A DNA stretch of 24,493 nt, from positions 1-24,493 of the IMG/VR virus record IMGVR_UViG_3300042352_001087; one strand, 5' to 3'. Source of the DNA: a virus. A program made the translations under genes and the position numbers. The notes below the pieces were generated by a model, which searched no databases, was not told the DNA's origin, and saw only the letters and a program-made list of their open reading frames with translations. Positions 670-24,493 of the stretch are shown here, one piece after another; the first letter of the stretch is position 1; each line of letters begins with the position of its first letter.

Positions 670-1541
670 AATTTACAATTTAAAAATTCTTTTAATCTAG
701 AACTCTTCCCGTACATTCTCAACTTTTTCAAAGCAAACTCTTTAATCTGCCTAACTCTTTCATTTGTTAGGTCAAGTTCTTCACCAATTTCTTTTAAACT
801 CATTTCGTAGTATCCATTGAGACCAAAGTGCATATTTAATATACGTATCTCTCTAGCGCTTAAACCTTCAAAAACTGAATTTATTTGTTCTTTTAATGAA
901 TTAAGATTAATCTTCTTATCTATATCATCCATAGTTTCCCCTGGAATGAAATCACCTATTTCACTATCTGAATCCTCCTTTATCTTATCATCTATTGACA
1001 CATAAGTCATTGCATCATTAACAGAAATCTTTACTTCTCTTTCTGTTAATTCAGTAATACCTACAATTTCTTGTATAGTCGGTTCTCTATCTAATTTTTG
1101 ATAAAGTTTATCAGATGCTTTATTTACTTTGCCTATGTTATTTATTTTATTTATTGGAAGCCTTACTGTATTTCCATTTTCGTACACAGACTGCATAATA
1201 GATTGTCTTATCCACCAAACAGCGTAAGATATAAACTTTACACCTTTTGTTTCATCAAACTTGCCTACTGCTTTTATAAGACCAATATTACCCTCACTAG
1301 ACAACTCCTCTAAAGGGATTCCAGACCAAGAATAATCTTTTGCAATTGATAAAACGAATCTTAAATTTGACTCTACCAATTTATTCATAGCCCTCTGATC
1401 TCCATCTTTAGCTTTTATTGCCAATTCAGTTTGCTCGTCACCAGATATTGTATCTAACTTCCTTAAGTCTTTGAAATAATTTCTTATTGAGATGCTATTG
1501 CCACTAACACCACAATCGTTGTTGTTTGTTTTTTCTGCCAT
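666..1541 (-). CDS. Phage-encoded RNA polymerase sigma-70 factor (primary-type, lacks region 1.1)
   Basis: This 291-aa protein has the full sigma-70 layout. Region 1.2 is near residues 18-50. Region 2 covers about 51-140, with NLRFVLSIAKDY, EGNIGLIKAVGKFD, the DNA-melting segment FISYAVWWIRQSI (104-116) and RLPINKINNIGKV (127-139). Region 3 covers about 153-190. Region 4 covers about 226-286, with the helix-turn-helix SLKEIGEELDLTNERVRQIKE (248-268). Length and motifs match the short Bacteroidetes primary sigma factor, and there is no region 1.1. It should bind host core RNA polymerase and direct it to phage promoters. In region 4.2, Asn260 occupies the place of a usually invariant Arg (TRERVRQIK in host-type factors; Arg584 in E. 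coli sigma-70) that contacts the -35 element. It lies 16 nt after the 143-aa gene and overlaps the next gene by 4 nt. A host origin with later divergence is likely. Confidence 0.95.
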   Translation of the reverse strand: MAEKTNNNDCGVSGNSISIRNYFKDLRKLDTISGDEQTELAIKAKDGDQRAMNKLVESNLRFVLSIAKDYSWSGIPLEELSSEGNIGLIKAVGKFDETKGVKFISYAVWWIRQSIMQSVYENGNTVRLPINKINNIGKVNKASDKLYQKLDREPTIQEIVGITELTEREVKISVNDAMTYVSIDDKIKEDSDSEIGDFIPGETMDDIDKKINLNSLKEQINSVFEGLSAREIRILNMHFGLNGYYEMSLKEIGEELDLTNERVRQIKEFALKKLRMYGKSSRLKEFLNCKL

Positions 1542-2866: not shown

Positions 2867-5179
2867 TTAACTACTACATCCAAAACACTCAAATTGACTA
2901 TCAACAGGTCTTTCAACCTTCTTTTCAGTAGACATATCGATAGCTAAATGTTTTGCTTTATTTTCAACAGGCTGACTTCTTAAATAATACTGACCAGTTT
3001 TAAGACCCAACCTCCAACCTAAATTGTGAGCTGTACTTAATTTACCAACCGTTGGAGTATCGAAGAAAAGATTAAGACTTTGAGATTGGTCAATAAATGG
3101 ACCTCTATCTGCAGACATATTAATAAGAGCACCCTGAGATAACTCCCAAACTGTTTTATACACCTCTTTTAATTCAGAACTAATCACTGGTATGTTTTGA
3201 ATACTTCCGTCATTTTTGATTAACTCATTTAGAATATCTCTATTCCAAAGATCTGCCTCTTCTAAATCCTTAACTAAATGCTTGTTAACCATAGCAAATT
3301 CACCACCTGTTACTTTACGAACATATAAATTTGAAGTAAATGGCTCAAACGCTTCATTTGAACCGATTACACGAGCAGAACTAGCTGTTGGAGGGCAAGT
3401 AGTCACTAAAGAGTTTCTTACTCCATACTTTAAGATATCTTCTCTAAGAGTAGCCCAATCGTGCATACCGCTTAAACTTTCCTCTTTCAATCCCCACATT
3501 TCCCATTGGAAAATACCTTGTGAAATAGGAGAACCTTCGTAGTGCTCATAAGTTAACCCTGTTTCTTTTGCTAAGTCACAAGATTGTCTTAAAGCATTAA
3601 AGTATATTGTTTCAAAAATATCTTTATTTAACTTTTTAGATTCATCAGAAGTAAATGGCAATCTAAGCATAGCAAACACATCTGCCAAACCTTGGATACC
3701 AATTCCTAGAGCTCGTTGCTCTAAACCTCCCTTACGACCTTCTTTGGTTGAATATTCGTTTACATCAATAGCAATGTTAAGAGATTTTGTAATCGAGCGA
3801 ACAACTCTACCCAATTCTTTGAAATCATATTTTTTACCCTTAACAAATTTCTGAACTGGTACTGATGTAAGTGTACAAATCGCAGTTGTATCTCTATCCG
3901 TTACCTCCATAATTTCTGAACACAAGTTACTAGAATGAATCACGCCAAAGTTTTTTTGGTTTGACTTTTCATTCGCCTGATCCTTGTAACACATATAAGG
4001 CATACCTGTTTCGATTTGAGATTCTAATATCTTAATCCACAAATCATGAGCCTTAATTTTAGACCCTATTCCAAGCGCTACAGCCTTATTGTATTCTTCT
4101 TCAAACTCTTGACCATATATTTCATAGAAAGGCTTTAAACCTGCTACTTTAATATCGTGAGGGCAGAATAAATACCAATCACCGCTTTCTTGTACCGCTC
4201 TCATAAAGTTATCAGGAATCCAAAGCGCAGAAAATAAATCACGAGCTCTCAATGTTTCATCACCAGTCTTTTTTCTAATTTCTAAAACATCAAAAACATC
4301 TTTATGCCAAGGCTCGATATATACAGCGCAAGAACCTGGTCTCTTTCCTCTTTGATTCCAAAATCTTAATGCCTCGTTTACAACTTTTAAGTATTTTAAA
4401 ATACCACCTGCTTTACCATCTGATTTTCCTACATTACTTTCTTTTGAACGAATGTTAGATACTGCTAATCCAATACCTTCAGCTTTAGATGATGATACTG
4501 AAATTCTACCCAACATATCTAATAAACCATCAGTAGAATCATCAGGTACAATAGAAAGATTACAAGATGCAATCTGACCGATGTTTGTACCAATATTAAT
4601 TTTAATGGGAGTTGCTGGACTTTCTTTCTGACTACTTAAATCGCTGTATTTTTCTTTAAAATCTTTTGCATTTTCGGTCACCATCAAAGCAACTCTCACA
4701 TACATATGTTGAGGTCTTTCAATAACTATGCCTTCAGATGTTTTTAAAAGATAAATATCTTTTAATGAACACCAACCAAAATAATCAAAATTATAATCTC
4801 TAGAATAATCAATAACTGATTCTATTAAATCAATATTCTCTTTTACTTTGTTATAATAAACTTCGCTTAACAAACCGCTATTATACATTTTTTTGGTAGC
4901 TTTCATAAATGAATCTTCAGTTTCTTTATGAAGTTTACTTATTGCTATATTTGCTGCCAACTTAGAATAGTCAGGATGATTCATTGCCAATGATTCAGAC
5001 ACCACTGAAATTAAATCATCTAATTGGTTTGTTGTCATATTATCAGCCAAACCTTGTGTTACCTTAATAAACACCTCGTCCGCATTAACTTTTAATCCTT
5101 CTGCTTGTTTCTTAATTCTAGTTAATATCCTACTAGGATTAAAATCAATCTTGTTTCCGTTTCTTTTTATTACTTGCAT
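2867..5179 (-). CDS. nrdA: Class Ia ribonucleoside-diphosphate reductase, large (alpha) subunit
   Basis: This 770-aa protein reduces ribonucleoside diphosphates to deoxy forms with NrdB, supplying dNTPs for phage DNA synthesis. Residues 1-90 form an ATP-cone, the allosteric activity domain (MQVIKRNGNKIDFNPSRI). Catalytic features are visible: C206 in ASCNLS and C435 in ICTLTSV as the redox pair, the NLCSE motif at 418-422 with radical-forming C420 and the N418/E422 pair, CPPTASS at 595-601, the radical-relay tyrosines Y731-Y732, and a C-terminal CFGC (C765, C768) that would pass electrons from thioredoxin or glutaredoxin. Length is typical and all key residues are present, so it should be active. 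It follows nrdB by 32 nt. No thioredoxin or glutaredoxin gene lies nearby, so reducing power probably comes from the host or from elsewhere in the phage. Confidence 0.97.
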   Translation of the reverse strand: MQVIKRNGNKIDFNPSRILTRIKKQAEGLKVNADEVFIKVTQGLADNMTTNQLDDLISVVSESLAMNHPDYSKLAANIAISKLHKETEDSFMKATKKMYNSGLLSEVYYNKVKENIDLIESVIDYSRDYNFDYFGWCSLKDIYLLKTSEGIVIERPQHMYVRVALMVTENAKDFKEKYSDLSSQKESPATPIKINIGTNIGQIASCNLSIVPDDSTDGLLDMLGRISVSSSKAEGIGLAVSNIRSKESNVGKSDGKAGGILKYLKVVNEALRFWNQRGKRPGSCAVYIEPWHKDVFDVLEIRKKTGDETLRARDLFSALWIPDNFMRAVQESGDWYLFCPHDIKVAGLKPFYEIYGQEFEEEYNKAVALGIGSKIKAHDLWIKILESQIETGMPYMCYKDQANEKSNQKNFGVIHSSNLCSEIMEVTDRDTTAICTLTSVPVQKFVKGKKYDFKELGRVVRSITKSLNIAIDVNEYSTKEGRKGGLEQRALGIGIQGLADVFAMLRLPFTSDESKKLNKDIFETIYFNALRQSCDLAKETGLTYEHYEGSPISQGIFQWEMWGLKEESLSGMHDWATLREDILKYGVRNSLVTTCPPTASSARVIGSNEAFEPFTSNLYVRKVTGGEFAMVNKHLVKDLEEADLWNRDILNELIKNDGSIQNIPVISSELKEVYKTVWELSQGALINMSADRGPFIDQSQSLNLFFDTPTVGKLSTAHNLGWRLGLKTGQYYLRSQPVENKAKHLAIDMSTEKKVERPVDSQFECFGCSS

Positions 5180-5211
5180 TTTTGTATTATTTATCGTATT
5201 TATTGTGCTTA

Positions 5212-6180
5212 TTAAATTTCTTCATCAAAACTAATTGGACCTGTTAAGTCGGCAGTTTTATATTCAGTAGGTCTATTTTCAAAAAAGTTTGATTTAGACT
5301 TTAATGCAATTTGATTCATAAACTCAAAAGGTTGTTTTGAACCAAACTCGATATCACACCCTAGCTGAGCTAAAAGTTGATCTGTCACGTATTCTAAATA
5401 TTGTTTCATCAATTCAGAATTCATTCCAATTAAAGAGATAGGTAAAGACTCTGTAATAAATTCTTTTTCTATTTCAAGAGCAGATAAAAGTATTTCACGA
5501 ATTCTAGCTTTTGAGGGTTTGTTTAAAATATGATTATTTAATAAATGAATTGCAAAATCACAATGCATAGCCTCATCTCTAGAAATAAAAGCATTACTAC
5601 TACATAAACCTGGCATTAAACCTCTAGACTTTAAATAGAAGATACTACAAAAAGAACCTGAGAAGAAAATACCTTCAACGGCCACAAAAGCAATCAATCT
5701 CTCTATAAAAGATTCTGATTCAACCCACTTAAGAGCCCACTCTGCCTTTTTCTTTACAGGTGGCATATATTCAATAGCTTTAAAGCATTCATTTCTCTCC
5801 TTTGCATCTTTAATATATGTATCAATTAACAGAGAGTAAGTATTGCTATGCACATTTTCCATATGAATCTGAAGCCCGTAGAAAAATTTAGCTTCTGTAT
5901 ACTGAACCTCATTTAAGAAGTTAACAGCTAAATTTTCATTTACTATCCCATCAGAAGCTGCAAAAAAAGCCAATACATTTTTAATAAAAAATCTTTCATT
6001 GTCTGTAAGTTTGTTTTTCCAATGAGGTATATCTTGAGCTATATCTAACTCCTTAACAGTCCACATAGCTTTTTCTTGTTCTTCATACAAATCCCATAAG
6101 TCTTGGTGCACAATTGGAAACAAAACAAACCTGTCTTGGTTTTCTTTTAAAATCGGTTCTTCCATTTTTATTTCATTCAT
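5212..6180 (-). CDS. nrdB: Class Ia ribonucleoside-diphosphate reductase, small (beta) subunit
   Basis: This 322-aa ferritin-like helical protein carries the di-iron centre and tyrosyl radical that NrdA needs. The metal ligands can be placed: D77 (FFAASDG), E108 and H111 (MENVH), E169 (AVEG), E203 and H206 (RDEAMH). Y115 (SNTYS) sits at the radical-tyrosine position, so this is a tyrosyl-radical class Ia enzyme and not a Mn/Fe class Ic type. The C-terminus is acidic with aromatic residues nearby, as expected for the tail that docks on NrdA. nrdB comes before nrdA in transcription, the reverse of the E. coli nrdAB order. The compact length and motif style resemble Bacteroidetes cellular enzymes (from memory), so acquisition from a host is plausible. 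An 87-nt AT-rich gap with no convincing promoter separates it from the helicase gene. Confidence 0.97.
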   Translation of the reverse strand: MNEIKMEEPILKENQDRFVLFPIVHQDLWDLYEEQEKAMWTVKELDIAQDIPHWKNKLTDNERFFIKNVLAFFAASDGIVNENLAVNFLNEVQYTEAKFFYGLQIHMENVHSNTYSLLIDTYIKDAKERNECFKAIEYMPPVKKKAEWALKWVESESFIERLIAFVAVEGIFFSGSFCSIFYLKSRGLMPGLCSSNAFISRDEAMHCDFAIHLLNNHILNKPSKARIREILLSALEIEKEFITESLPISLIGMNSELMKQYLEYVTDQLLAQLGCDIEFGSKQPFEFMNQIALKSKSNFFENRPTEYKTADLTGPISFDEEI

Positions 6181-8743: not shown

Positions 8744-9802
8744 TTAATCAATAGACACAGAATCCCAACCTTTTTCATATTCTAAATTCCAATCTGGAGC
8801 ATATTTTTTCTTGTACTCATCCATTGCTGTTTTATCATCTAAGATAAATCCATGATTTGTACAAATAATCGTACCTTTAGCTGATGTTTCAGTGATGTGA
8901 TTTTTTTCTAATAAAATACCAGACTTGATTGCGTAGTTCATTTTTTCACCATTTCTAGTCGCATCAACTTTCGCACTTCTAGTCATAACTCCACCAATTC
9001 TAAAAACTAATGTAGAAGGCAAGTATAAACTATCTCCACCATAAGGCTCAATTGTAGTATTTCTTTTACCCATTTGAATATTTGGAGGCGACATATAACC
9101 TTGATTTACAATGAACAAAGAAGCATTATAAGGACAAGATTCTACTCTTGAGCCATTAATTCTATGAACAAGATATCTTTGGAATTCTTCTTTCATAACC
9201 CTTGCAGCTTTCATCATAGCCCCACCTTCTCCTTCGTCTTCTTTTCTTTCCAACTCATCTTTAGTAGGTGTAGCCCCTAATGAATCCCAAATAAATAAAA
9301 CATCAAATTTGAAGTCTTTTTGTTTTGGGTCGTCTAAATCATCAAGAATATTTTTAATCAACAAACACCCTTCTTCTATTGTCTTTACACCCTTAAAAAG
9401 AAGTGCATTATCTAGATTAACACCCATTTGCGTCGCTCTAGCTTCTGAAAATTTATTTTCAGTTATAATAAAAACAGGTACAATACCTTGCTTTTGAGCG
9501 TGAGCTGCCAATTCTGTAGCCATTGTAGATTTACCAGTATCTGATTTACCGTAAATCATACACATATGTCCTATTGGCATACCTGGAAGATTAAAAGTCT
9601 GCTTATATGCAGGACTCATGTCAATCCATTCCTGCGGTTTATATTTTGTTTCCACAAAATTAATTTTTGCCTTATAGTCTTTTAAACTAGCAAACGCTTT
9701 ATTTATTATTGGCTTCTCTTTCTTTTCTGAGTTTTCTAAAATTTCTCCTGTTTCTGTGTCAACTAATTCTTCATCAATTTGTTTGATTGCTTTCTTTGCC
9801 AT
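8744..9802 (-). CDS. uvsX: UvsX/RecA-type recombinase
   Basis: The 352-aa protein has the RecA-fold core of strand-exchange recombinases: Walker A GKSDTGKST at 85-93, a beta strand ending FIITE at 111-115 (E115 near the catalytic glutamate position), Walker B VLFIWDSL at 168-175, and a conserved VNQGYM near 233-238 followed by a flexible basic loop (MGKRNTT) that fits the DNA-binding loop L2. Residues 1-50 are charged and probably form the oligomerisation tail. Length and layout are nearer to phage UvsX (about 390 aa) than to cellular RecA, since the long RecA C-terminal domain is not evident. It should coat ssDNA and drive strand invasion for recombination-dependent replication and repair. 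It is the first gene after the promoter at 9835-9865 and heads the exonuclease-helicase cluster. Confidence 0.93.
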   Translation of the reverse strand: MAKKAIKQIDEELVDTETGEILENSEKKEKPIINKAFASLKDYKAKINFVETKYKPQEWIDMSPAYKQTFNLPGMPIGHMCMIYGKSDTGKSTMATELAAHAQKQGIVPVFIITENKFSEARATQMGVNLDNALLFKGVKTIEEGCLLIKNILDDLDDPKQKDFKFDVLFIWDSLGATPTKDELERKEDEGEGGAMMKAARVMKEEFQRYLVHRINGSRVESCPYNASLFIVNQGYMSPPNIQMGKRNTTIEPYGGDSLYLPSTLVFRIGGVMTRSAKVDATRNGEKMNYAIKSGILLEKNHITETSAKGTIICTNHGFILDDKTAMDEYKKKYAPDWNLEYEKGWDSVSID

Positions 9803-12302: not shown

Positions 12303-15300
12303 TTAATTTGGAAATCCTGAGTTTTTAACAAATTTATTAAATGAACCTATAATAAAATTAACTGATTTTTCAGTTAATTTATATATATCATACTCAATCC
12401 AACCAGCTTTATGACCTTGACCTTTTTTTGCATAATCTAAAACTCCTTTATAATTTGGATTACTTGCATAATTTTTATTCATCTGAAACATCCCTTGAAA
12501 TGTTTTTGATCCATCTGTATCAGTATTAAGACCATTTTCTATCATACCAAAATTTCCAATCCTATCCCAAGATAATCCCAAATCAGCTTGTTCATATTTT
12601 TGGAAAGCTTTTTTAATTTCAGAATAAAGCACACCGCTTCTATTTTTACCAGCACTATTAAGTTTAGGAAGCGCTTGCTCTGTTTTTTTCGCATAATGTT
12701 GCTTCCAAACATCTATAAAAGCTATTGCTAGCGATTTTGGATTTGAATAATATAAGGAATCTATATTTGCTTTTCCAACGCCAGCTGAAGACTTCAAATT
12801 TCCTGGCCAATTCGATTTTATAGCAGCCTTTGTCACAGATCCATAATTTGATTTTTTCCCTTTTGAAATCTTGTAATGCTCCACTGCACCACCAACACCT
12901 TGATTCCACGAAAGATATATCCACAAATCAACATCTGTAACATTAGGGTCAAAATTAGCATCTAGTGTTGTATTTCCTTCAGAAGTTTCTTCAAACACAG
13001 GTTGTTGCCTAGTGGTATTTACCGCTCTATCTGTAAGACTCGATGCGTCTGTTGTTTCTTCAACAACATTTATACTAGCTAAACTATCTAAAGTCACAGG
13101 TCTAATTCCTGCTAATTCCCCTTTTGAAAACCTCATTCTTATTCCTTCTGCTGTTGTAGACATATCATTAGGTGTAATACTATGCTTAACGTTAGTAACT
13201 TGATATATACCATTAAAAATTGGTATAGAATTTAAATAGAAATATTGCATTGGGAAAACTTGTGCGTTTCCCTTCATTTCAAAAGTTGCCTTATAGCTCC
13301 TACCTTCCATAACAGGAAGTTGAGAGCAATCTGTAGCTATCTTTTTGTTTGGATTATCATTATCAGTTGCCCTCTGAGTACTTATTATAGATTCAGCTGT
13401 CGCTTTAGTTTCATATGTGTCTACGCTAAAATTTGTAAAAATTTTATTATCTGGAGAACCAACCTTAACTTCATAAGCATCTTGATTTGGACTTACCTCA
13501 TAGTCTTCAGTTAAAGTACTTTTTTTGTCATTTATAGCCTTCACTCTAGATTCTGGTGTTGGTGTAAACATAACATAAAATAAGTTTTGTAATCTTACCT
13601 TTGTGCTTATTTGAGGTTTGAAAATTTCTAAATAATCATTAAAATTACCATTCCCTGGAATTGGAACGAATGTAAAGTTGTTTTTTGTACATACTTGTTG
13701 AAACATATTTAACACAGTCGTATTACCATCAGGTCTATACATAGGTTCTATGTTTATCATTGATTTTCTAACATCAATATCAGCTTGATTATTTAAAGGG
13801 TAGTCATAAACAAAAACATTTGTATCTAGTGCTTCTATTTGACTTTTTTTATCCACACCTGATTTTATAGATGATTTTGTTGAATAATGTCTTGAATTGT
13901 CTGCAACATCTTCAGAGCCATATCTATCTTCTAATGTCTGAACTATTTTTTCAATTGGTATAATTGGAAACTCAACATCTTTACCTGAGTCATATTTAGA
14001 ATCATCAAACAACAGCGCTTCCCATTGATGATATAATGTGTGAAATTGTTTATATATTGTATCTCTACTTTCTGTAGCTTTACCTAAGACATCAGAAATA
14101 ATTTGATTTCTAGTTTGTTCAACCTTATTCATCTTACTAAGTATAATACTACACATCCTCTTAATAGAAGCTCTATGATTTCTTCCTGAAGGAGAATTAA
14201 AGAAAGGTCCAAAAACTAACCCCTTATCACTAGAAAGAGGAGCCATGGCAACGGCAACAGCTAAGTTTGAAGCTGGGATTTGTAAATTAAAATCTGTAAT
14301 ATTTGTACTTGACGGGACTATTTTGGCTTGCTCAGCCTCATTAGAACTTGTCGGATAAAGCACCAAGTCTTCCCATTTTTGACCATCTGGAGAAAAAAGA
14401 GACGGAGAAGGATTGTTGATTTCCGAATATTTTATTACAGCAACTTTCAACCTCTCCTGAACAAAAGTTATCCTACCTAAAGGCTCTGAAGCATTTGCGC
14501 CTGAAGCTCCCCCTGCTTGAGAAGGAAAGTATGTGTCTATAGGAACTATACCGACCAAAGGCTTTTTACCTCCCGTTAAACTTGTTGCGTCAGGATCTTC
14601 ATTTTTTGCTTGGTCATCACTAGATGCATTGTTTGCTTCTTTTGCTTTTGTTGCATCTGAACCTTGGAAAAAAACGAAAGTAAAATCATTTTTAGCAGTA
14701 TCTGTTTTTGGAACTCTATATAAAATATCATTACTTAATACAGCTTGAGCCTGCATAGTTTCTTTACTAATAAACCCTGCGTTTGATTTATCATATCCTA
14801 CATCATCATCGTTTACGTTTTTTTTACTTCCAAAAACTAAATCATATATGTCATTTATATTTAGAGTAACGCTTTCGTCAGACTTATCTACTCTAACTTT
14901 CTTATCAATAACAGTACTTGGAATTGGCTTTTTGAAATCTGAGCCAGCAAAAGGAAGACCTTCTGGTTTACCATCTTCACCTAATAAAAAAAGACCATCA
15001 TCTGTTATTAGATTTGACCAATAATAGCAAAACTGTTTTAATAACATATATTCAGTTTCTTCTATTTCATTTAGCATTTGCTCCGATATATTATCCATAT
15101 CAGAAGATGCTAACCTTAAAACTTCTTCTACAGATTCTCTATCTATTTTCCAAAAAGTATCATAATCACCTGGATAATTTGGGTCATTACTTCTTGTTAA
15201 AAAAGAAGCAATACCAGCTCTTACCATTATATTTTGTGCAATATTCCTAAAATAAGGCTTGTATGGATTTCCTTTTGGAGCTTCTATGTTATTAATTCTT

Positions 15301-16706
15301 CTAAGAAGTTTTGTATCATCAGGTAAACCACCTATTTGATTTTCTCTTATTAAGTCTTGCGCAACACCTTGACTTACTGCGGTAATAAATTTATCTACAA
15401 AATTTAACTCATAATTTTCTATGTCAACTCCCGAACCAATAGCAGGGACTTCATTTCCAGTTTCAGTATCTATTTTTAAAGGAAATTGCTTTCCGATTAT
15501 TTCTTTTAATTGTACTTTTTCATCTCTATCTGTCGTATTTTTACTATACCCAAGAGCTCCAGCCTCCAATATTTTACCCATAATATAACCAGAATCTCTA
15601 CCCATTTGTCTAAAAATTTGACCTATAGTTATTTTTTCTAGCTGACTTTTACTTGAGTCGTATATTCTTTTTTTTATAGCAGCTTCTATAACTCTTATAT
15701 TATTATCAATAAGTGTAATTCTAGATCTCATTTCTTCTGATTCATATGATCCAGAATTAAAATTCACACTACCCAAGCTCACATTCTTGCTAGTTGCTGA
15801 ACCTATTTGTGCATTAAGTAAAAGATATGTATTTACTTTTCTTAAAGCGTCTGCATTTGAGGATGTATATTCTTTTATTTTGTCGGCACTATTTATTTCA
15901 GCCTCCTTTGGAACTGGAAACGTAATATTACTAAAATTTATAGTCTCTTTACCTTCCCTAGTTGATACGACTTTAGAATTTCCTGCCGTTCCATTAATCT
16001 CTTCGCCTAACTTAATTGTTTTACCATAACAAATAGCCTCTACAATCCTATTTGACTTAATAAGATTCATTTGAGTCAACAATACATCAAACTCTTTTGT
16101 TATTTCTTTTGTCTTAGTTTCACTTCTTAAGCCTATTTTTATTAAATCAAAAACTGTTTGTTGTTTTTTAAACTCTTCAGGAGGTAATTCATTTTTTTTC
16201 AATCCTTTTATTGCCAGCAAAAAAAGAAATGGCAAATCACCCATAAAACCCCATTGACTAGGAATAAGCTCACACTTAATATCATAACTACCATCTTGCT
16301 GATAAGATGTTGATGTCTGTTTTAAATTTAATACCCAAGAAACTTGTCTACCCAAAAACCCTTTAAATGTAAAAAGGAATTTTGGCGGTGGCCAATTAAA
16401 AAGAACAGAATAATTGGGAACATCTTGATCAATAACATCTTTTCCAAAAACTGCATTTCCATACAAATCTTTAAAAGTTATTGTAACTATAGGCTGTAGT
16501 GATGTATTTATTTCAATATTTATACTTGTAATGCCGAAGCCAATATTTTCCCTAAAAAATCCAGTGGTAAAAATTTCACGACCCATAAAATCATATTGAC
16601 TACCATCTACAATAGCAATCAATCTACCATCCAAATAATAACCTGAATCACTTATAGTGAAATCTGTTTCTTCTGCTTTTATTATTCTAGAATTTGTATT
16701 ACTCAT
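12303..16706 (-). CDS. Tail baseplate-hub paralog with C-terminal transglycosylase-like domain
   Basis: This 1467-aa protein is the third of three paralogs in transcription order. Residues 1-170 are a beta-rich N-terminal domain (GYYLDGRLIAIVDGSQYDFMG, FTFKGFLGRQVSWVLNLKQT). A central region includes SNDPNYPGDYDTFW near 508. Residues about 1130-1192 resemble the end of gp27/gpD/XkdQ-like hub proteins (GNAQVFPMQYFYLNSIPIFNG, then YQVTNVKHSITPNDMSTTAEG). A polar linker then leads to a 219-residue unique C-terminus from about 1249. There LSWNQGVGGAVEHY (1265-1278) resembles the late AYNAG/HQQG motif of lytic transglycosylases, while IENG (E1390) and GMFQM (1405-1409) resemble the early E-S-G and GLMQ motifs, so the usual order appears reversed. 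The likely role is local peptidoglycan cleavage by the tail tip during entry. No signal peptide is present, as expected for a virion protein. It ends 20 nt before the polymerase. Confidence 0.82.
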   Translation of the reverse strand: MSNTNSRIIKAEETDFTISDSGYYLDGRLIAIVDGSQYDFMGREIFTTGFFRENIGFGITSINIEINTSLQPIVTITFKDLYGNAVFGKDVIDQDVPNYSVLFNWPPPKFLFTFKGFLGRQVSWVLNLKQTSTSYQQDGSYDIKCELIPSQWGFMGDLPFLFLLAIKGLKKNELPPEEFKKQQTVFDLIKIGLRSETKTKEITKEFDVLLTQMNLIKSNRIVEAICYGKTIKLGEEINGTAGNSKVVSTREGKETINFSNITFPVPKEAEINSADKIKEYTSSNADALRKVNTYLLLNAQIGSATSKNVSLGSVNFNSGSYESEEMRSRITLIDNNIRVIEAAIKKRIYDSSKSQLEKITIGQIFRQMGRDSGYIMGKILEAGALGYSKNTTDRDEKVQLKEIIGKQFPLKIDTETGNEVPAIGSGVDIENYELNFVDKFITAVSQGVAQDLIRENQIGGLPDDTKLLRRINNIEAPKGNPYKPYFRNIAQNIMVRAGIASFLTRSNDPNYPGDYDTFWKIDRESVEEVLRLASSDMDNISEQMLNEIEETEYMLLKQFCYYWSNLITDDGLFLLGEDGKPEGLPFAGSDFKKPIPSTVIDKKVRVDKSDESVTLNINDIYDLVFGSKKNVNDDDVGYDKSNAGFISKETMQAQAVLSNDILYRVPKTDTAKNDFTFVFFQGSDATKAKEANNASSDDQAKNEDPDATSLTGGKKPLVGIVPIDTYFPSQAGGASGANASEPLGRITFVQERLKVAVIKYSEINNPSPSLFSPDGQKWEDLVLYPTSSNEAEQAKIVPSSTNITDFNLQIPASNLAVAVAMAPLSSDKGLVFGPFFNSPSGRNHRASIKRMCSIILSKMNKVEQTRNQIISDVLGKATESRDTIYKQFHTLYHQWEALLFDDSKYDSGKDVEFPIIPIEKIVQTLEDRYGSEDVADNSRHYSTKSSIKSGVDKKSQIEALDTNVFVYDYPLNNQADIDVRKSMINIEPMYRPDGNTTVLNMFQQVCTKNNFTFVPIPGNGNFNDYLEIFKPQISTKVRLQNLFYVMFTPTPESRVKAINDKKSTLTEDYEVSPNQDAYEVKVGSPDNKIFTNFSVDTYETKATAESIISTQRATDNDNPNKKIATDCSQLPVMEGRSYKATFEMKGNAQVFPMQYFYLNSIPIFNGIYQVTNVKHSITPNDMSTTAEGIRMRFSKGELAGIRPVTLDSLASINVVEETTDASSLTDRAVNTTRQQPVFEETSEGNTTLDANFDPNVTDVDLWIYLSWNQGVGGAVEHYKISKGKKSNYGSVTKAAIKSNWPGNLKSSAGVGKANIDSLYYSNPKSLAIAFIDVWKQHYAKKTEQALPKLNSAGKNRSGVLYSEIKKAFQKYEQADLGLSWDRIGNFGMIENGLNTDTDGSKTFQGMFQMNKNYASNPNYKGVLDYAKKGQGHKAGWIEYDIYKLTEKSVNFIIGSFNKFVKNSGFPN

Positions 16707-16737
16707 ATTAATACTTAACTGATAAATTTATTTTTTA

Positions 16738-19700
16738 CTATAAAGCAAAAAACTCTTCAGCATATTTATACCTCTTAGGTATACTTTGAGGAGTTTTTCC
16801 GCCCTTATTTTTATACACTTTTGTATAAGTAGATTCATTAACTATAGAAGCATAATACGAATTTGGATCTGAATTTCCCAAACCAAAACTAATATGAACT
16901 ATAGCAGTATATTGCCTAAGGCTCAAATTTTGATTTTTTAGTAGATTCCAAACTTTAGTATAAGACAATGTCATTTCTTGTTTTATAAATTTTAATTGAG
17001 TTTCGAAATCTTCTATTCCAGTACCTTCTTTTTTTGCTAAATTCTGCAAATTTGTTAACCTACTACCTCTCCACTGAGCAATACCAAGAGCTCCACATCC
17101 ACCTCCAGTGCCATTAAATGCTGTTGGATTAAATTGACCTTCATACCTAAAATGACCTAACATTCCAGATAATGCTTTCTTTGACAATTCTGGGAAAATT
17201 TTCTTAGCCATAGTATACACTTTAGATACATCCACTCTTTTAGATATATCATTTTTCTTAAAATTCATTTCAGGACACCCGACTTTTCTACCACCTCCAT
17301 CACCAGAACTTACAGGACCACTATCTGTAGATGTTAATGTTGATGACCTGTCTGCTGATTCTCTAGATTTTAAAGGTGAATCTTCTAATTCTTCTACGAC
17401 AATATCTTCTTTTTGAAAAGACTCTAATGTAATAGGCTGAACTCCGCCTGATGATCCTGGCGCAAACCTCATTCTAACACCCTGCGCTTTAGTAGTCATA
17501 TCATTTGGTGTTATACTATGATTAACCTTCAATGTTTGATACAACCCATTAAACAGTGGAATACTATTAAGATAAAAATATTGCATAGGAAATATTTGCG
17601 CATTACCTATTATTTCAAACGTGGTCTTGCAACTCCTACCTTCCATAACTGGTAGTAGAGAACAATCTGTAGTAACCTTTTTATTTTGATTTTCATTATC
17701 AGTAAGTCTTTGTAGGTTTACAATACTTTCGGCTGTTGCCTTATTCTCATACGTCTCTATATCTACGGACTTAAATATTTTATTATACGGAGAACCTATT
17801 TGCACTTCTAATACATCCTCTGAAATAGTTGTCTGAACGCTTTGAGATAATACAGATGCATCTTTATTATCCAATCTAGTCCTAGATTCAGGTGTTGGAG
17901 CAAACATTATATAAAATAAATTCTTCAACTCAACCTCATTAGTTATTTGAGGCTTAAATATATCCGTACAATCATTGAAATCTGCATTCCCTGGTATTGG
18001 GATAAACATAAAGTTATTTTTTTGACACACCTGTTGAATAATATTTAACACAGTCGTGTTTGAATCTGCTCTATATAAAGGCTCTATGTTTATTATTGAA
18101 TTTTTTACATTTAACTTTGCCGTATTGTTTAATGGATAATCATACACAAACGTACAGTTCTTATATGTTTTAATTGAAAGTTTTTTATCCCCAGAGTTTG
18201 GCGATCTATGTTGATTATCCCCTCCAAATCTTTCTTCTAATTCAGAAACAATTTCTGGAATATCTATTTTTTTATATTGTTTTTTTGTATCACTAGTATT
18301 TATATCTTTAAACAACAATGAATCCCATTGATGATATAGAATATTAAACTGTTTATATATCGCATTTTTTCCATCTTCTGCCTGACCTAGAATATCTGAA
18401 ATCAACTTATTTTTTTCATCTTCTAGTGATTGGAATTTTCCTAAAATCTCATTACACATTGTTATAATACAGGCTAAGTGGTTTCTTCCTGATACTGAAT
18501 TATAAAATGGCCCAAACAACAACCCTTTATCTCCAGGGTATGGATGAAAAGCAATAGAAGCTGTTATATCTGATGCTGGTATCTGCTTATCTACATCTCC
18601 TGACTGAATTAAACTTGGATTTATAAACTCAGCATCTGTTGGATAAACACAATAATTCATCCACTCTGTTTCATCATTCCAAGCTTCTCTAGTTGGATTT
18701 GCCATAGCAGAATATTTCAACAAAGCAACTTCTAATCTTGATTGCATGAATTCTACTCTTGGAAGTATTTCCCCATCTGAACCAGTGTATGTGTCTATTG
18801 GCACATAACCTAGTAAATTATCTTTTGATGCTCCGAAAAAACTAGTTGCATCAGGATCCGCATTTCTAGCCTCACCATCACTATTTGAACTATTTATAGA
18901 CCTTACCTTGTTAGAATCTACACCATCAAATAAAACAAAAGTATACTTGTCAGACCCTTGACTTACAAGTGGCACTCTGTATAAAATTTCATTATTATAA
19001 ATTGCTTGTGATTGCCAACTATCTCTTTTTAAATATTTAGTGTTTGACGTGTCTATTATATCACTAGCAGAATTGTTTCCGCCAACCCCAAAAGCCATAT
19101 TATAAATATCGTCTAATGTCCTAGCTTCTTTTGATGCGTTGTCAACAATTGCTTTTCTATTTTTTAAACCATCTGGTATAGCTATCTCAAATTCTGTTCT
19201 CGGAACAAATCCATCAAACTTTCCAGAACCATCTTCTGCTAGTAAAAAAAAACCATCAGACGAAGCAAAATTTTTCCAAAAATTACAAAACTGCTTTAAC
19301 TGAAGTGTTTCTGTTTCATTTAACTCAGAAAGCATTTGTGTAGAAATATTTTCCATATCAGAAATAGCCAACGTAGTAACTTCTTCAACAGATTCTCTAT
19401 CTGTCACATAATTATCATAATCTCCAGGGTAATTTGGGTCATTACTTCTAGTTAAAAATGAAATAATACCTGATCTAATTAATACATTTTGAGCAATGGT
19501 TCTAAAAAATGGTTTATAAGGATTTCCTTTTGGTCCTTCAACATTGTTAATCCTCTTAGTTAGGACATTATCTTGAGAAGTACCTTCTTGTTGTTGAGCA
19601 GGCTGAATCAAATCTTTAGCAACACCCTCACTTATAGCTGTAATAAATTGATTTACAAAAGCCATCTCATAATCTTCCACTCCATAACCTTCAGCTGGAA

Positions 19701-20925
19701 CTTCATCTTTTTCTTTCCCTTTAATCATTAATGGGAAATGTTTATTTATTATTGCCTCACTCTCTACAGCACTATCTCTTTCATCTGTATTTTTTAAATA
19801 ACCTTCTTCTCCAGCTTTTAGTATTTTACCCATAATATAACCTGAGTCTTTAGCTAGCTGTTGGAATATCTCTCCAATTGTTATCTGTCTTAATTGAGAT
19901 TTCGATGACTTATAAATTCTATCCTTGATTACATCTTGAATGATTTTAAGATTATTATTAATAATATCAATTCTCTGCTTTACTTTATCGTCTCTAAATC
20001 CTCCGTTGTCAAAATTTATTTCACTTAAGCTTACATTTTCTGGTTTTACACCTTCAAATTCAGCATTTAACAATAAATATATATTCACCTTTTTTAATGC
20101 TTCTGCATTTGTAGAAGTGTAAGTTTTAATTTTCTCTAACGTATTAATTGGAGCGTCAGGAGTTTTTATAGTTATAGTCTTATATTGTAAAGTTCCACTA
20201 TTTTTTATTCTATTATTACCAAAAGTACCATCAATAGCCTCTTCAAGTTTAATGACTTTACTATAAACTAATGCCTCTACAATTCTATTTGATTTTAAAA
20301 GAGTCATTTGTTGTTGTAGAATATCAAATTCAGCAGAAACTTGCTGTGATTTAACCTCAACCTTTCTACCTATCTTAATTAAGTCAAATATGCTTCTAAC
20401 TTGCTTAAAATCAGAATCATTTAATTCTTTTTTTCTAAGACCTTTTGCTGCCAATAAAAAAAGAAAAGGTAAATCAGACATAAAACCCCATTGATTTGGT
20501 ATAAACTCACATTTAATATCATAACTACCATCTGATTGGTAAGTGACAGATGTCTGCTTTAAAGTTAGCAACCATGTAACTTGACTACCTAAATAACCTT
20601 TAAATGTAAAAAGAAATTTTGGAGGTGGCCAATTAAATAAAATTTTGTAATTCGTGAAATCAGAAGTTTCATTTTTACCAAACATTGTATTACCATACAA
20701 ATCTTTAAAAGTAATTGTTATTACTGGGTTTAAGTTTGTGTTTAGTTCAATATCTACACTTATAATTCCGAACCCAATATTGTCCCTAAAGAAACCAACG
20801 CTAAATATCTCTCTACCCATAAAATCATAAGCACTACCATCTACTAGAGCACTCAATCTCCCATCCAAGTAAAATCCTTGGTCACTTATCTTATAAGAGA
20901 TTTCTTCTGGTTTTATTCTTGCCAT
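16738..20925 (-). CDS. Tail baseplate-hub paralog with C-terminal phage tail lysozyme domain
   Basis: This 1395-aa protein is the middle paralog. Its N-terminus (GFYLDGRLSALVDGSAYDFMG) and its core to about residue 1150 align by eye with both neighbours along their length, ending in the hub-like GNAQIFPMQYFYLNSIPLFNG module at about 1092-1152. A Ser/Thr/Gly-rich linker (TSTDSGPVSSGDGGGRK) leads to a domain at 1214-1395 that fits the phage tail lysozyme family (Phage_lysozyme2, PF18013): MLGHFRYEGQFNP with E1262 as likely catalytic acid, then GCGALGIAQW (1276-1285), then a helical region with YTAIVHISFGLGN. This would cut the glycan strand during genome delivery. Compared with its two neighbours it lacks two residues near GDYDNYVTDRESVEE, so the other two are closer to each other there. 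It starts 54 nt after its upstream paralog and ends 31 nt before the next. Confidence 0.88.
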   Translation of the reverse strand: MARIKPEEISYKISDQGFYLDGRLSALVDGSAYDFMGREIFSVGFFRDNIGFGIISVDIELNTNLNPVITITFKDLYGNTMFGKNETSDFTNYKILFNWPPPKFLFTFKGYLGSQVTWLLTLKQTSVTYQSDGSYDIKCEFIPNQWGFMSDLPFLFLLAAKGLRKKELNDSDFKQVRSIFDLIKIGRKVEVKSQQVSAEFDILQQQMTLLKSNRIVEALVYSKVIKLEEAIDGTFGNNRIKNSGTLQYKTITIKTPDAPINTLEKIKTYTSTNAEALKKVNIYLLLNAEFEGVKPENVSLSEINFDNGGFRDDKVKQRIDIINNNLKIIQDVIKDRIYKSSKSQLRQITIGEIFQQLAKDSGYIMGKILKAGEEGYLKNTDERDSAVESEAIINKHFPLMIKGKEKDEVPAEGYGVEDYEMAFVNQFITAISEGVAKDLIQPAQQQEGTSQDNVLTKRINNVEGPKGNPYKPFFRTIAQNVLIRSGIISFLTRSNDPNYPGDYDNYVTDRESVEEVTTLAISDMENISTQMLSELNETETLQLKQFCNFWKNFASSDGFFLLAEDGSGKFDGFVPRTEFEIAIPDGLKNRKAIVDNASKEARTLDDIYNMAFGVGGNNSASDIIDTSNTKYLKRDSWQSQAIYNNEILYRVPLVSQGSDKYTFVLFDGVDSNKVRSINSSNSDGEARNADPDATSFFGASKDNLLGYVPIDTYTGSDGEILPRVEFMQSRLEVALLKYSAMANPTREAWNDETEWMNYCVYPTDAEFINPSLIQSGDVDKQIPASDITASIAFHPYPGDKGLLFGPFYNSVSGRNHLACIITMCNEILGKFQSLEDEKNKLISDILGQAEDGKNAIYKQFNILYHQWDSLLFKDINTSDTKKQYKKIDIPEIVSELEERFGGDNQHRSPNSGDKKLSIKTYKNCTFVYDYPLNNTAKLNVKNSIINIEPLYRADSNTTVLNIIQQVCQKNNFMFIPIPGNADFNDCTDIFKPQITNEVELKNLFYIMFAPTPESRTRLDNKDASVLSQSVQTTISEDVLEVQIGSPYNKIFKSVDIETYENKATAESIVNLQRLTDNENQNKKVTTDCSLLPVMEGRSCKTTFEIIGNAQIFPMQYFYLNSIPLFNGLYQTLKVNHSITPNDMTTKAQGVRMRFAPGSSGGVQPITLESFQKEDIVVEELEDSPLKSRESADRSSTLTSTDSGPVSSGDGGGRKVGCPEMNFKKNDISKRVDVSKVYTMAKKIFPELSKKALSGMLGHFRYEGQFNPTAFNGTGGGCGALGIAQWRGSRLTNLQNLAKKEGTGIEDFETQLKFIKQEMTLSYTKVWNLLKNQNLSLRQYTAIVHISFGLGNSDPNSYYASIVNESTYTKVYKNKGGKTPQSIPKRYKYAEEFFAL

Positions 20926-20936
20926 AAATTATTGTA

Positions 20937-20967
20937 TAAATATAAGCTTTTTTAATTTATTTTACAA
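20937..20967 (-). promoter_or_regulatory. Possible variant promoter upstream of the middle hub gene
   Basis: On the minus strand TTG (20967-20965) is followed by 20 nt and TATATTTA (20944-20937), the same variant seen before the zinc-ribbon gene. The box ends only 11 nt from the ATG at 20925, so a transcript would be almost leaderless. This counts against it. Confidence 0.22.
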
Positions 20968-20979
20968 CAAATTAAACTT

Positions 20980-23900
20980 TTAAGTTGTTGTTTTAGCTCC
21001 AGCGTTTACTTGAAATTCGTTTGTGACAACTATTTGTGTTATTTTATTGTCATATATAAGCTTAGTTAAAGCTTTACAATGTTCTATATCATTCTTTATT
21101 CTTCCATCTGACAATCTTTCTGAAGAATATATAATACAACCAGAAGACCAATTTTCATCTGTACCATTATGTATCCTAACACCCCCAAAACTCAACCCAT
21201 AACCTTTTAAAGTATTACCATCCGTACTTGTTCCAATCTTAGGAAAAACACCTGGGCTTTTAAATTTAGCTCTAGAATCATTGGGAAATCTAACATAACA
21301 TGCAGTTAAACCTGGATTTCCTGTTGTGTCTAATACAATATTGAAAAATCCATTTGGAATTGCCGTTTTATCATCAATCTTAGTAGTTCTTACAGGGTCT
21401 TCTACTGTAAAACCTAAAACTTTTTTATTATACCACATAGTACCACCCGTTCTTTTTGCGTTAGAAAACTCCCTCACAACAACCAATGTATTTGGTAGAT
21501 TCACAAGACCTTTTGCTTTAGAAGATAAATTATCATATGGTATATATTCTCCAGATGGAGTACCTCCAACTATTGATTCAGAATCTTGAGCCTCTACCAA
21601 AGGTGTAGCAACACCAGTGGTTGGAGCTTGAACAGGTCTTGCTTTAAATTCTCTTTCATTCAAATCGCTCGCATCTACAGAGTCTATTTTTATTCCTAAG
21701 TTTTCAAAAGTCTCTAAAGTTATTGGTCTAATAGATGCCGATGTCCCCATACTCATTCTCATTCTTATACCCTCAGCTGTGGTAGTCATATTATTAGGAG
21801 TAATACTATGTTTTACACTTTTTACTTGATACAGACCATTAAACAATGGTATACTATTCAAATAAAAATATTGCATAGGAAATATTTGGGCATTTCCTAT
21901 CATAGTAAACCCAGCTTTATAGCTTTTACCTTCCAAAACAGGAAGTGTTGAGCATTCTATTCCAATTTTTTTACTTGCATTTTGGTTGTCAGAAAGTTTT
22001 TGCAAATTAAATACGCTTTCTGCTGTTGGTTTATTTTCTGAACTATCTATAGTTACGCCTTTAAATATTTTATTTTCAGTAGACCCAACTTTTACCTCAA
22101 AAGCTTCACTATTTAAAATAGGGCTTTTAGCTTGAGATAGAATTACACTACTAGAATTTGACAACGTTGTCCTATTTTCTGGTGTAGGCGAAAACAAAAT
22201 ATAAAAAAGATTTTGGATTCTTTGAGGTGTTGATGGATGTGGTTTAAAAACTTCTGAATAATCATTGAAGTCGCCGTTTCCTGGTACAGCAACAAATGTA
22301 AAATTATTTTTTGTACATAATTGTTGAATCATATTCAAAACAGTTGTATTTCCATCAGGACTATACATTGGTTCAATATTTATCAAAGAATTTCTAACAT
22401 CTATATCTGCTACATCACTAACAGGACAATCATATATAAATACATTAGAATCTAAACTTTTTATTTTTTCTTTTCTACTTTCTTTTTTTATTGCAACATG
22501 TCTTTCTGAAATATTTTTTCCGCCATATCTCTCCTCTAAAGTATTTACAATAGACTTTGAATCAATTTTTGGGTTTGAACAATTATCATCATTATCTGAA
22601 TCATCATACATTAAAACCTCCCATTGATGAAACAATACATGAAATTGTTTATATAATGCGTTTTTACCTTCTTCTGCCTTACCTACTACACTTGAAATTA
22701 TTTTATTTCTATCCTCCTCTAGAGTGCCCATTTTTTCCAAAATAACTTGACACATCTTTCTAATTGCAGCTCTATGATTACGACCAGATGACGTTTTATA
22801 GAAAGGTCCAAAAACCAAACCTTTATCCTTTGAATACGGATGAAAAGCAACTGATACAGCTAAATTTGAAGGTGCTAAATTTTTATCATTATCTGTTTCG
22901 GTTTTTTGAGGATCTACTATTTTTGTATCAGCAGAATATACTACAGCCTTAACCCAATTATCCTCATCTTTCCAAGCTAATCTTGGTGGATTTGCCATTT
23001 CAGAATATTTTAAAACAGCAAATGGAAATCTTTTATTTATTAGCGTTACTCTACCTAATTCAGAATTATTAGTTCCTTTAAAAGAATTAATAGGAACAAT
23101 ACCTAATAAATATTTATCTAAATCCTCACCTTTTACTGTATCATCACTATTTGCACTATTTGCCTCTCTTGCCTTTGTTGCATCTGAACCTTTAAATAAT
23201 ACATATGAATAATCATCTGTAAGCTTATTTGTTTTAGGCACTCTATAAAGTATTCTATTATTATATACAGCTTGGGATTGCATACTTGCTTGGTTAATAT
23301 AAAGAGCTGTAGAATTATCTATAATACCACCAACTGTATTTTCGTCTGATGCGATATTTCCAAAAACTTCATTATAAATATATGTTAATGTTTTTCTTGT
23401 ACCAGAAGACTTATCAACAATTACACCTCTTGAGATTAACCCATCATCTAATTCGTCTTCAAAATCATTAGTTGGTATATCGGTTGACGTTGGTTTTCCC
23501 TCATCATCTAAATATTTTAAACCATCATCTGTCATCAATCTTGTCCAATAATTACAAAACTGCTTCAACTGAATGTATTCTGTACTATCTAACTGAGATA
23601 ACATCCCTGTTGTAACATTTTCCATGTCAGCGGATGCTAACTCTAATATTTCCTCTACAGATTCTCTGTCTATACCCCAAAATGTATCATAATCACCTGG
23701 ATAATTTGGATCACTACTTCTAGTTAAAAACGCAATAATTCCTGCTCTAACCATAATGTTTTGAGCTATATTTCTAAAAAAAGGAGCATATGGATTTCCT
23801 CTCGGAGCTTCAACATTATTAATTCTCTTAACTAGAGATGTATCATTTGCCAAACCTAAAGCTTGGTCATCTTGAACCAAGTCCAATGCAACACCTTCAC

Positions 23901-24493
23901 TTATAGCTGATACAAAATCATTAACAAACGCAAGCTCGTTTTCATTAACCTTATAACCTTTAGCTGGAACTTCCTCATTTTTTTCAGTATCAATCATTAA
24001 AGGAAATTGCATACCTATAATATCTTGATTTCCTGCAGCTTCTTTTCTGTCAGGACTTGCTTCTAAACCTTTTTGTCCAACTTCTAATATCTTACCTAAA
24101 ATGTATCCTGCATCCTGAGAAAGTTGTTTGAATATCTCTCCAATAGTAATTTGTCTTAATTGTGATTTAGAAGATTCAAACGACCTTTGTCTTATAGCAT
24201 CTTCTATCAGTTTAATATTATCGCTTATTAATGTCGTTCTTTCTCTTGATTTATCTTCTTTATATCCACCAGAGTCAAAATTTACTTCACTAACAGATGA
24301 AACTTTAGCGTCTGAAGCTCCGTCTATATTTGCATTTAAAAAAAGAAAAGTATTCATTTTTCTTAACGCCTCAGCGCTAGTTGCTGAATATTCTTTTATT
24401 TTTTCAACTGTATCATAATCGCTTGGTGCATTTACGGTTACTTTTTTGAAAGTTAAACTATTGTTTCCTTTAATTTTAAGGTTTCCAGCTGTC
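20980..24493 (-). CDS. Tail baseplate-hub paralog with C-terminal DUF5675/L,D-transpeptidase-like domain (5' end beyond right edge)
   Basis: The frame is open through base 24492, giving 1170 visible residues. The ATG at 24357 is internal, because the 45 codons before it (including VEKIKEYSATSAEALRK) match the paralogs. About 220-230 N-terminal residues are therefore missing by comparison. The core ends with the hub-like GNAQIFPMQYFYLNSIPLFNG module (visible residues about 851-911), followed by a Pro/Thr/Gly-rich linker. The last 174 residues (20983-21504) look like DUF5675: VREFSNAKRTGGTMWY, GFTVEDPVRT, TAIPNGFFNI and then GVRIHNGTDENWSSGCIIYS. The His (visible residue 1108) and the SSGC cysteine (1119) resemble the His/Cys pair of YkuD L,D-transpeptidases. 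A role on peptidoglycan stem peptides is plausible but unproven for this family. Confidence 0.82.
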   Translation of the reverse strand, partial: TAGNLKIKGNNSLTFKKVTVNAPSDYDTVEKIKEYSATSAEALRKMNTFLFLNANIDGASDAKVSSVSEVNFDSGGYKEDKSRERTTLISDNIKLIEDAIRQRSFESSKSQLRQITIGEIFKQLSQDAGYILGKILEVGQKGLEASPDRKEAAGNQDIIGMQFPLMIDTEKNEEVPAKGYKVNENELAFVNDFVSAISEGVALDLVQDDQALGLANDTSLVKRINNVEAPRGNPYAPFFRNIAQNIMVRAGIIAFLTRSSDPNYPGDYDTFWGIDRESVEEILELASADMENVTTGMLSQLDSTEYIQLKQFCNYWTRLMTDDGLKYLDDEGKPTSTDIPTNDFEDELDDGLISRGVIVDKSSGTRKTLTYIYNEVFGNIASDENTVGGIIDNSTALYINQASMQSQAVYNNRILYRVPKTNKLTDDYSYVLFKGSDATKAREANSANSDDTVKGEDLDKYLLGIVPINSFKGTNNSELGRVTLINKRFPFAVLKYSEMANPPRLAWKDEDNWVKAVVYSADTKIVDPQKTETDNDKNLAPSNLAVSVAFHPYSKDKGLVFGPFYKTSSGRNHRAAIRKMCQVILEKMGTLEEDRNKIISSVVGKAEEGKNALYKQFHVLFHQWEVLMYDDSDNDDNCSNPKIDSKSIVNTLEERYGGKNISERHVAIKKESRKEKIKSLDSNVFIYDCPVSDVADIDVRNSLINIEPMYSPDGNTTVLNMIQQLCTKNNFTFVAVPGNGDFNDYSEVFKPHPSTPQRIQNLFYILFSPTPENRTTLSNSSSVILSQAKSPILNSEAFEVKVGSTENKIFKGVTIDSSENKPTAESVFNLQKLSDNQNASKKIGIECSTLPVLEGKSYKAGFTMIGNAQIFPMQYFYLNSIPLFNGLYQVKSVKHSITPNNMTTTAEGIRMRMSMGTSASIRPITLETFENLGIKIDSVDASDLNEREFKARPVQAPTTGVATPLVEAQDSESIVGGTPSGEYIPYDNLSSKAKGLVNLPNTLVVVREFSNAKRTGGTMWYNKKVLGFTVEDPVRTTKIDDKTAIPNGFFNIVLDTTGNPGLTACYVRFPNDSRAKFKSPGVFPKIGTSTDGNTLKGYGLSFGGVRIHNGTDENWSSGCIIYSSERLSDGRIKNDIEHCKALTKLIYDNKITQIVVTNEFQVNAGAKTTT

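Follow-up and report, generated by a model that had tools for sequence, protein, structure and literature searches.

A DUF5675 domain at the end of a phage scaffold protein

The window, i.e., the whole stretch of 24,493 nucleotides analysed here (positions 1 to 24,493 of the IMG/VR virus record IMGVR_UViG_3300042352_001087), carries on its minus strand three tandem genes for scaffold proteins that are approximately 50 to 54% identical to one another (Table 1). The C terminus of the first, a large tail-module scaffold protein, is a DUF5675 domain of about 150 residues. A sequence-only reading had placed this domain at 20983-21504, and it is present at these coordinates, on the minus strand; the plus strand of the interval contains stop codons. 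The Pfam profile PF18925 matched the domain with an E value of 1.9e-8 (34.6 bits) and the 1125-aa open reading frame (ORF) with 28.1 bits, both above the gathering cut-off of 26.7, and the domain is thus a member of DUF5675. The motif elements reported earlier, i.e., GVRIHNG, SSGCI, and an 11-residue interval from His to Cys (Cys at His+11), were all found, and the motif reads HNGTDENWSSGC.

The ORF of paralog 1 was listed at 20980-24357, and its frame is open to the window end. A full-length relative (1434 aa; L002:2284-6588) is 78% identical to paralog 1 over 1161 residues. The dN/dS ratios against the nearest relative were 0.110 for the domain (150 codons), 0.107 for the scaffold (930 codons), and 0.190 for the linker (70 codons), and the DUF5675 domain is under purifying selection. 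Elsewhere in the window, a sigma-70-like factor (666-1541, minus strand) and a ribonucleotide reductase pair (2867-6180, minus strand) were recognized by eye. The recombinase encoded at 8744-9802 is nearest to Flavobacterium phage immuto (31.7%), which hints at a host among the Bacteroidota.

Table 1. Features of the scaffold region in the window
Feature	Coordinates	Strand	Basis
Scaffold paralog 1, at least 1170 aa, carrying DUF5675; start beyond the window end	20980..24492	-	ORF and paralog comparison
DUF5675 domain (predicted L,D-transpeptidase-like fold), C terminus of scaffold paralog 1	21055..21480	-	Pfam, AlphaFold2 model, structural matches
His codon CAT of GVRIHNG, proposed catalytic base	21169..21171	-	Invariant in 32/32 alignment rows
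Cys codon TGT of SSGCI, proposed nucleophile	21136..21138	-	Invariant in 32/32 alignment rows
Scaffold paralog 2 with C-terminal phage tail lysozyme (PF18013)	16738..20925	-	Pfam; scaffold part 49.9% identical to that of paralog 1
Scaffold paralog 3, last ~240 aa without convincing family match	12303..16706	-	ORF and paralog comparison

Three scaffold paralogs with exchanged C-terminal domains

Tandem scaffolds were found in the window (12303-24492, minus strand), in L092 (9284-22376, plus strand), and in L093 (3-7899, plus strand), a cut contig with two copies. Contigs 32.7 kb and 372 kb long, possibly incomplete, carry a single-copy relative. In a tree of the scaffolds from the window, L002, L092, and L093, each of the three positions has a clade of its own, supported at 1.000, and the scaffold triplication predates the split of these phages. 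The three paralogs may possibly form a heterotrimeric tail tip.

The domain at the C terminus differs between viruses. The first scaffold ends in DUF5675 in the window and L002 and in a Hydrolase_2-like domain in L092 (E value of 1.9e-4, below cut-off). The second ends in the tail lysozyme in the window (E value of 3.9e-21) and in an M15/VanY-like domain in L092 (E values of 3e-5 and 1.9e-3, below cut-off). In the third, the C-terminal domains of the window and L092 are both without a family assignment: the tail of paralog 3 matched no family convincingly and neither a phage record at E<=1 nor a PDB sequence at E<=10, and for its counterpart in L092, neither was found at E<=1. Of the two glycan-cutting paralogs named by the sequence-only reading, only one, paralog 2, is confirmed. 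The two three-scaffold phages seem to pair glycan cutters with peptide cutters, which, given the unclassified domains in both, we regard as a lead only. In tblastn searches of phage records, scaffold 1 had no match at E<=0.001; for scaffold 2, there were 325 matching records at E<=0.1, and the 15 among them that were listed were hit only through the lysozyme end.

The paralog 3 terminus contains E...FQGMFQMN, which recalls lysozymes by eye only. The second-slot domain of L092, judged by eye, has H-x6-D followed later by WHW (cf. the LAS zinc motif in PMC4087270). The second scaffold of L093 (3-3464, plus strand) has an empty slot: it stops just before the enzyme domain, with the next open frame approximately 20 bases on. 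Two distant single scaffolds (37 to 39% identity; L169:9935-14854 and L170:10001-15142, plus strand) have C termini, FRGRGYIQLTWR and FRGRGYPQHTGR, respectively, that by eye recall GH19-type enzymes; Pfam gave no match for either.

Genomic setting of the scaffold and of other DUF5675 genes

The upstream side of the scaffold gene lies beyond the window end, and the evidence for its setting comes from the sister contig G005, in which the following genes are all on the plus strand. A tail sheath gene (PHROG match, 1.1e-56) is followed later by two genes for T4_baseplate proteins, then by ORFs of 707, 198, 1150, and 1425 aa with no convincing family match, and then by the DUF5675 scaffold. In this contig, the scaffold gene thus lies in the tail/baseplate module of a contractile tail. 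The sequence-only reading had called the protein a virion hub. The tail-module setting has homology support, in G005; the hub identity found none, as the scaffold had no convincing match to known hub families in Pfam, PHROG, or PDB sequences. GPW_gp25 was found in none of the six records in which it was sought. A structure prediction of the scaffold (pLDDT of 42.5 and pTM of 0.30) was too poor for a fold search. In L092, an opposite-strand ORF with repeated Cys/His-rich motifs (2994-4121, minus strand), is perhaps a homing endonuclease as judged by eye. On one side of it is an ORF that resembles a tape measure by eye and that PHROG did not match convincingly, and on the other is the next ORF of the tail module.

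In two other loci (L008 and L009), DUF5675 is a separate gene, one small ORF away from baseplate-wedge genes, and a third (L010) resembles this arrangement by eye. In phage PAU, it is two genes from a baseplate protein, and in crAss001, it lies near lysis-regulatory/holin genes. The common thread of these settings is the cell wall, at entry or at exit.

Conservation of the His and Cys residues

One DUF5675 member matched 245 of 50,697 phage records at E<=0.01. In a sample of 296 genomes from one phylum, the family is present in 23. To assemble relatives, a peptide pattern lying outside the His-Cys motif was derived from an alignment of the window domain with five relatives, and the loci it fetched were confirmed by whole-domain tblastn. 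This gave 84 loci (L007 to L090), of which 4 are from genomes and 80 are viral, the latter being the best 80 of 165 that were confirmed. Together with the window, L002, L091, and four phage-collection loci, they account for 91 profile hits (82 distinct sequences). The His, a Ser or Thr at Cys-3, and the Gly-Cys pair are kept in all 91 hits (82/82 distinct sequences); the Cys is at His+11 in 90 and at His+12 in one phage-collection member (L004). Because the loci were fetched by a pattern outside the motif, its conservation is not due to chance.

Removal of the window copy and two L002-contig copies left 88 hits, of which 37 remained at 80% identity. The alignment used for structure prediction omitted the four phage-collection members, by its own rule, and two fragments (L057 and L062), by choice, and comprised 31 sequences plus the window, i.e., 32 rows. 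Eleven residues are invariant in these rows (Gly33, Thr45, Glu47, Asp48, Lys54, Thr59, Pro62, His124, Gly126, Gly134, and Cys135 in model numbering). At Cys-2, the family has various residues other than His, and the Cys is not followed by an Arg.

A second set of 30 bacterial-genome loci (L134 to L163) was obtained with the Pfam profile from 35 matches in 23 genomes of the same phylum sample. The His and Gly-Cys are retained in 30/30, with the Cys at His+11 in 12 and at His+12 in 18, and the Ser/Thr at Cys-3 is missing in 19; since the fetching profile covers the motif, these loci are no independent test of it. One of them (L162) is apparently the same protein as a member of the first set (L087). 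Given the differences in spacing and at the Ser/Thr position between the first and second sets, DUF5675 has at least two sub-groups, both with the His-Cys pair. The bacterial-genome sub-group typically reads HPAN(N/D)A...xGCIAPV. Poor conservation of the His and Cys, which would have spoken against an active site, was not found in either set.

Predicted fold and relationship to YkuD

An AlphaFold2 model of the domain, built from the 32-row alignment, had a pLDDT of 79.1 and a pTM of 0.79; residues 112-119, directly before the strand of the His, were below a pLDDT of 50. According to DSSP on this predicted model, the His ends the strand 121-124, and the Cys immediately precedes the strand 136-139. 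A Foldseek search of the model against the PDB gave no match at E<=0.001 (the best, RNase E, had an E value of 0.47). VIA-align was run on 997 of the top 1000 Foldseek chains and listed 46 entries. Forty-five of these had Z scores of 5.0 to 8.1, and all were L,D-transpeptidase-fold proteins (L,D-transpeptidases, L,D-carboxypeptidases, and Tlde1a), including one, Bd1075 (7o21), that we take to be an L,D-transpeptidase-fold enzyme. The best was Pgp2 (6xj7; Z of 8.1, 3.5 A over 120 residues), and further entries were Csd6 (4xzz; Z of 7.0) and LdtMt1 (5e51) and Tlde1a (7uo3), both with a Z of 6.7. The 46th entry, MurK, followed after a gap at a Z of 2.0. The tool describes scores of 5 to 8 as common, and the case for the fold rests on the unanimity of the list and the gap to 2.0. 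The structural comparison with YkuD-type enzymes proposed by the sequence-only reading thus yielded, for the predicted model, the L,D-transpeptidase catalytic fold by VIA-align and no significant match by Foldseek alone.

Against predicted viral structures, the model had 11 matches at E<=0.001, including a crAss-like "L,D-carboxypeptidase/transpeptidase" and large proteins from Ralstonia phage RP31 ("DUF5675 domain-containing") and Synechococcus phage S-H38 ("Phage tail lysozyme domain-containing"). The named matches are largely DUF5675 or lysin proteins and so do not bear on the L,D-transpeptidase fold.

Profile searches placed the domain near, but outside, the established families. YkuD (PF03734) scored 16.0 and 16.8 bits, below its gathering cut-off of 23.4, and the Tlde1 domain (PF10908) scored 12.9 bits, below its cut-off of 30.1. 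Across the 32 members at E<=1, Tlde1_dom matched 22 (best, 1e-4) and YkuD matched 6 (best, 0.011), and apart from DUF5675, no other Pfam family matched more than 3. We also compared the profile locally with a YkuD set of 27 stretches, including overlapping stretches from some loci, that had been picked by a pattern demanding the His, [ST]xGC, and a following Arg, a choice that favors a match. The score was 31.8 (100 column shuffles: mean of 10.2 and maximum of 17.0; reversed: 11.1), with a probability of only 48.6%; a subset run scored 29.4 (shuffle maximum of 20.0; 31.3%), and the -glob option gave a weak score of 19.9 (9.7%). The subset alignment pairs IPxGxY/TPxGxF, IH/IH, and Gly-Cys/Gly-Cys of the YkuD proteins. 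The 32-row profile searched against PDB sequences at E<=10 recovered no L,D-transpeptidase; the best match was Cysteine Rich Protein B (1klx; E value of 0.024). A separate PDB sequence match, to a tail fibre (7z47; E value of 0.038), paired neither the His nor the Cys with a like residue and was treated as chance.

The closeness to the YkuD core that had been claimed from the sequence is therefore partial: the predicted fold and the alignment of the His and Gly-Cys agree with it, and the sub-threshold Pfam scores, the spacing, and the residues flanking the Cys do not. The window domain has the His, and around the Cys, it has Ser at Cys-3, Gly at Cys-1, and a hydrophobic residue at the next position. 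It departs from the motif HXX(14-17)-[ST]HGCh, as worded in PMC9638812, in its shorter interval (His+11) and in the absence of His at Cys-2. The latter is absent also from several proteins of the YkuD set (SSGC, SEGC, TEGC, and TDGC); every stretch of that set has an Arg after the Cys because the selection pattern demanded it. In view of the null Foldseek result and the sub-threshold YkuD scores, we call the domain L,D-transpeptidase-like, i.e., a predicted fold of this type with a shortened active-site loop, and not a filed YkuD member. It is very unlikely that the fold is of another type and the motif resemblance convergent, an explanation that could draw on the lack of a significant Foldseek match in the PDB and the weak profile probabilities but is opposed by the unanimous VIA-align list, the Tlde1_dom and YkuD matches across members, and the shuffled and reversed controls.

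Proposed activity

L,D-Transpeptidases attack the stem via a Cys acyl-enzyme. The Ser at Cys-3, the Gly at Cys-1, the hydrophobic residue after the Cys, and the lack of a Cys-2 His in YkuD-set proteins as well lead us to expect that the domain is active as a thiol enzyme, most likely a hydrolase. We consider that it is probably a cysteine enzyme and that its role at entry is to hydrolyse the stems or cross-links of peptidoglycan. The sequence-only reading had proposed a tail-borne cysteine enzyme acting on stem peptides or cross-links; the predicted fold and the conserved His and Cys favor this, and the YkuD score below the Pfam threshold does not. The domain is fused to the scaffold through the less conserved linker and is presumably carried in the virion, and the tail would bring it to the peptidoglycan on infection. 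With the His (21169) as its activator, the Cys (21136) would attack the L,D bond that follows stem residue 3 (mDAP3-D-Ala4 in most Gram-negatives), and the acyl-enzyme so formed would be resolved by water. With an uncross-linked stem as the substrate, the result would be L,D-carboxypeptidase action, and where the stem is the donor in a 4,3 cross-link, the cross-link would be opened. Peptide cutting of this kind would complement the tail lysozyme on the neighboring paralog 2. That a related virus has other wall-cutting-like enzymes in the same slot suggests that the domain helps the virus to breach the host cell wall.

Hydrolysis rather than transfer is what we infer, and a transferase is an unlikely alternative of some weight. 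The Cys acyl-enzyme would then pass the stem to a D-amino acid or to another stem, so that the wall would be edited or re-sealed around the injection site or the infected cell marked. The fold group does include true transpeptidases, as well as Tlde1a, for which both carboxypeptidase and exchange activities are described (PMC9638812). The neighboring paralog bears a tail lysozyme, however, and the swapped domains look hydrolase-like; the two top structural entries are carboxypeptidases, yet lie within 2 Z units of transpeptidases. Less probable again is a non-catalytic module that kept the fold and binds stems, anchoring the tail to the wall. This would fit the spacing and Cys-flanking residues, which depart from canonical YkuD, and the poorly predicted stretch near the site, but not the invariance of His, Gly, and Cys in 32/32 rows or the Ser/Thr at Cys-3 in 82/82 distinct sequences, a conservation that spans standalone, lysis-neighboring, and tail-fused members. 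DpaA is a YkuD-family protein. Since it detaches Braun's lipoprotein (PMC8263019), an enzyme for another wall link, such as a protein-to-peptidoglycan bond, can be imagined here, but this is quite improbable, with no sign of such a substrate in the host and nothing in the domain that points to protein binding.

Returning to entry-associated hydrolysis, a bolder and somewhat doubtful extension is that the tail tip would be a heterotrimer of the three scaffold paralogs bearing three wall enzymes at once, in which one peptide cutter took the place of another, non-homologous one (paralog 1 of the window would carry a cysteine hydrolase of the L,D-transpeptidase fold, and paralog 2 of the relative would carry an M15-like zinc peptidase). 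If so, DUF5675 would define a new class of L,D-endopeptidase, carried by the virion and opening cross-links at entry. Activity of the domain in itself would extend the wall enzymes of phage entry by an L,D-specific cutter and could lead to lysins of a new kind.

Comparison with known systems

DUF5675 is widespread yet listed in Pfam as of unknown function, and the predicted fold, the active-site pair, and the tail setting make a function testable. The sequence-only reading had stated that no activity was established for it. This holds for experiments, as the literature searched merely mentions DUF5675 and contained no published activity; an enzymatic label is already present in GenBank. crAss001 Gp30 (AXQ62673.1), of the same family, is labeled "L,D-carboxypeptidase/transpeptidase," as are proteins of many crAss-like phages. 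The label is an annotation, and it means that the enzymatic idea is not wholly new. What is new is the fusion of DUF5675 to a tail scaffold and the swapped C-terminal slot; the literature searched contained no case of DUF5675 on a tail scaffold for which a function had been tested or argued. The crAss-like proteins are tblastn relatives of the members used here, and cr108_1 keeps the His...[ST]xGC core. Gp30 is a standalone protein of ~150 aa, whereas the window domain is fused to a tail-module scaffold, and it is perhaps used at lysis because its gene lies near lysis-regulatory/holin genes.

The best structural matches to the predicted domain, Pgp2 and Csd6, are L,D-carboxypeptidases and, unlike a phage tail domain, cellular shape enzymes. 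The catalytic residues of Pgp2 are C174 and H157 (PMC8038945), an interval of 17 compared with 11 in the window domain, and Pgp2 has an NTF2 domain. A delivered enzyme of this fold is Tlde1a, which is linked to the family by the structural match and by the weak Pfam matches in 22 of 32 members. In Tlde1a, the interval is 10 (His121-Cys131), and Ser128, at Cys-3, makes bonds with both the His and the amide of the Cys (PMC9638812). It is a type VI secretion effector. The window domain falls below the Tlde1 Pfam cut-off and is without a His at Cys-2. A further known system is the baseplate hub gp15 of Anabaena phage A-1(L), which has active endoglucanase and peptidase domains (PMC10966104) and, as proposed for the scaffold set, joins a tail protein with glycan- and peptide-cutting domains. 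That hub is one trimeric protein with several enzymes, whereas the window encodes three paralogs with one C-terminal domain each.
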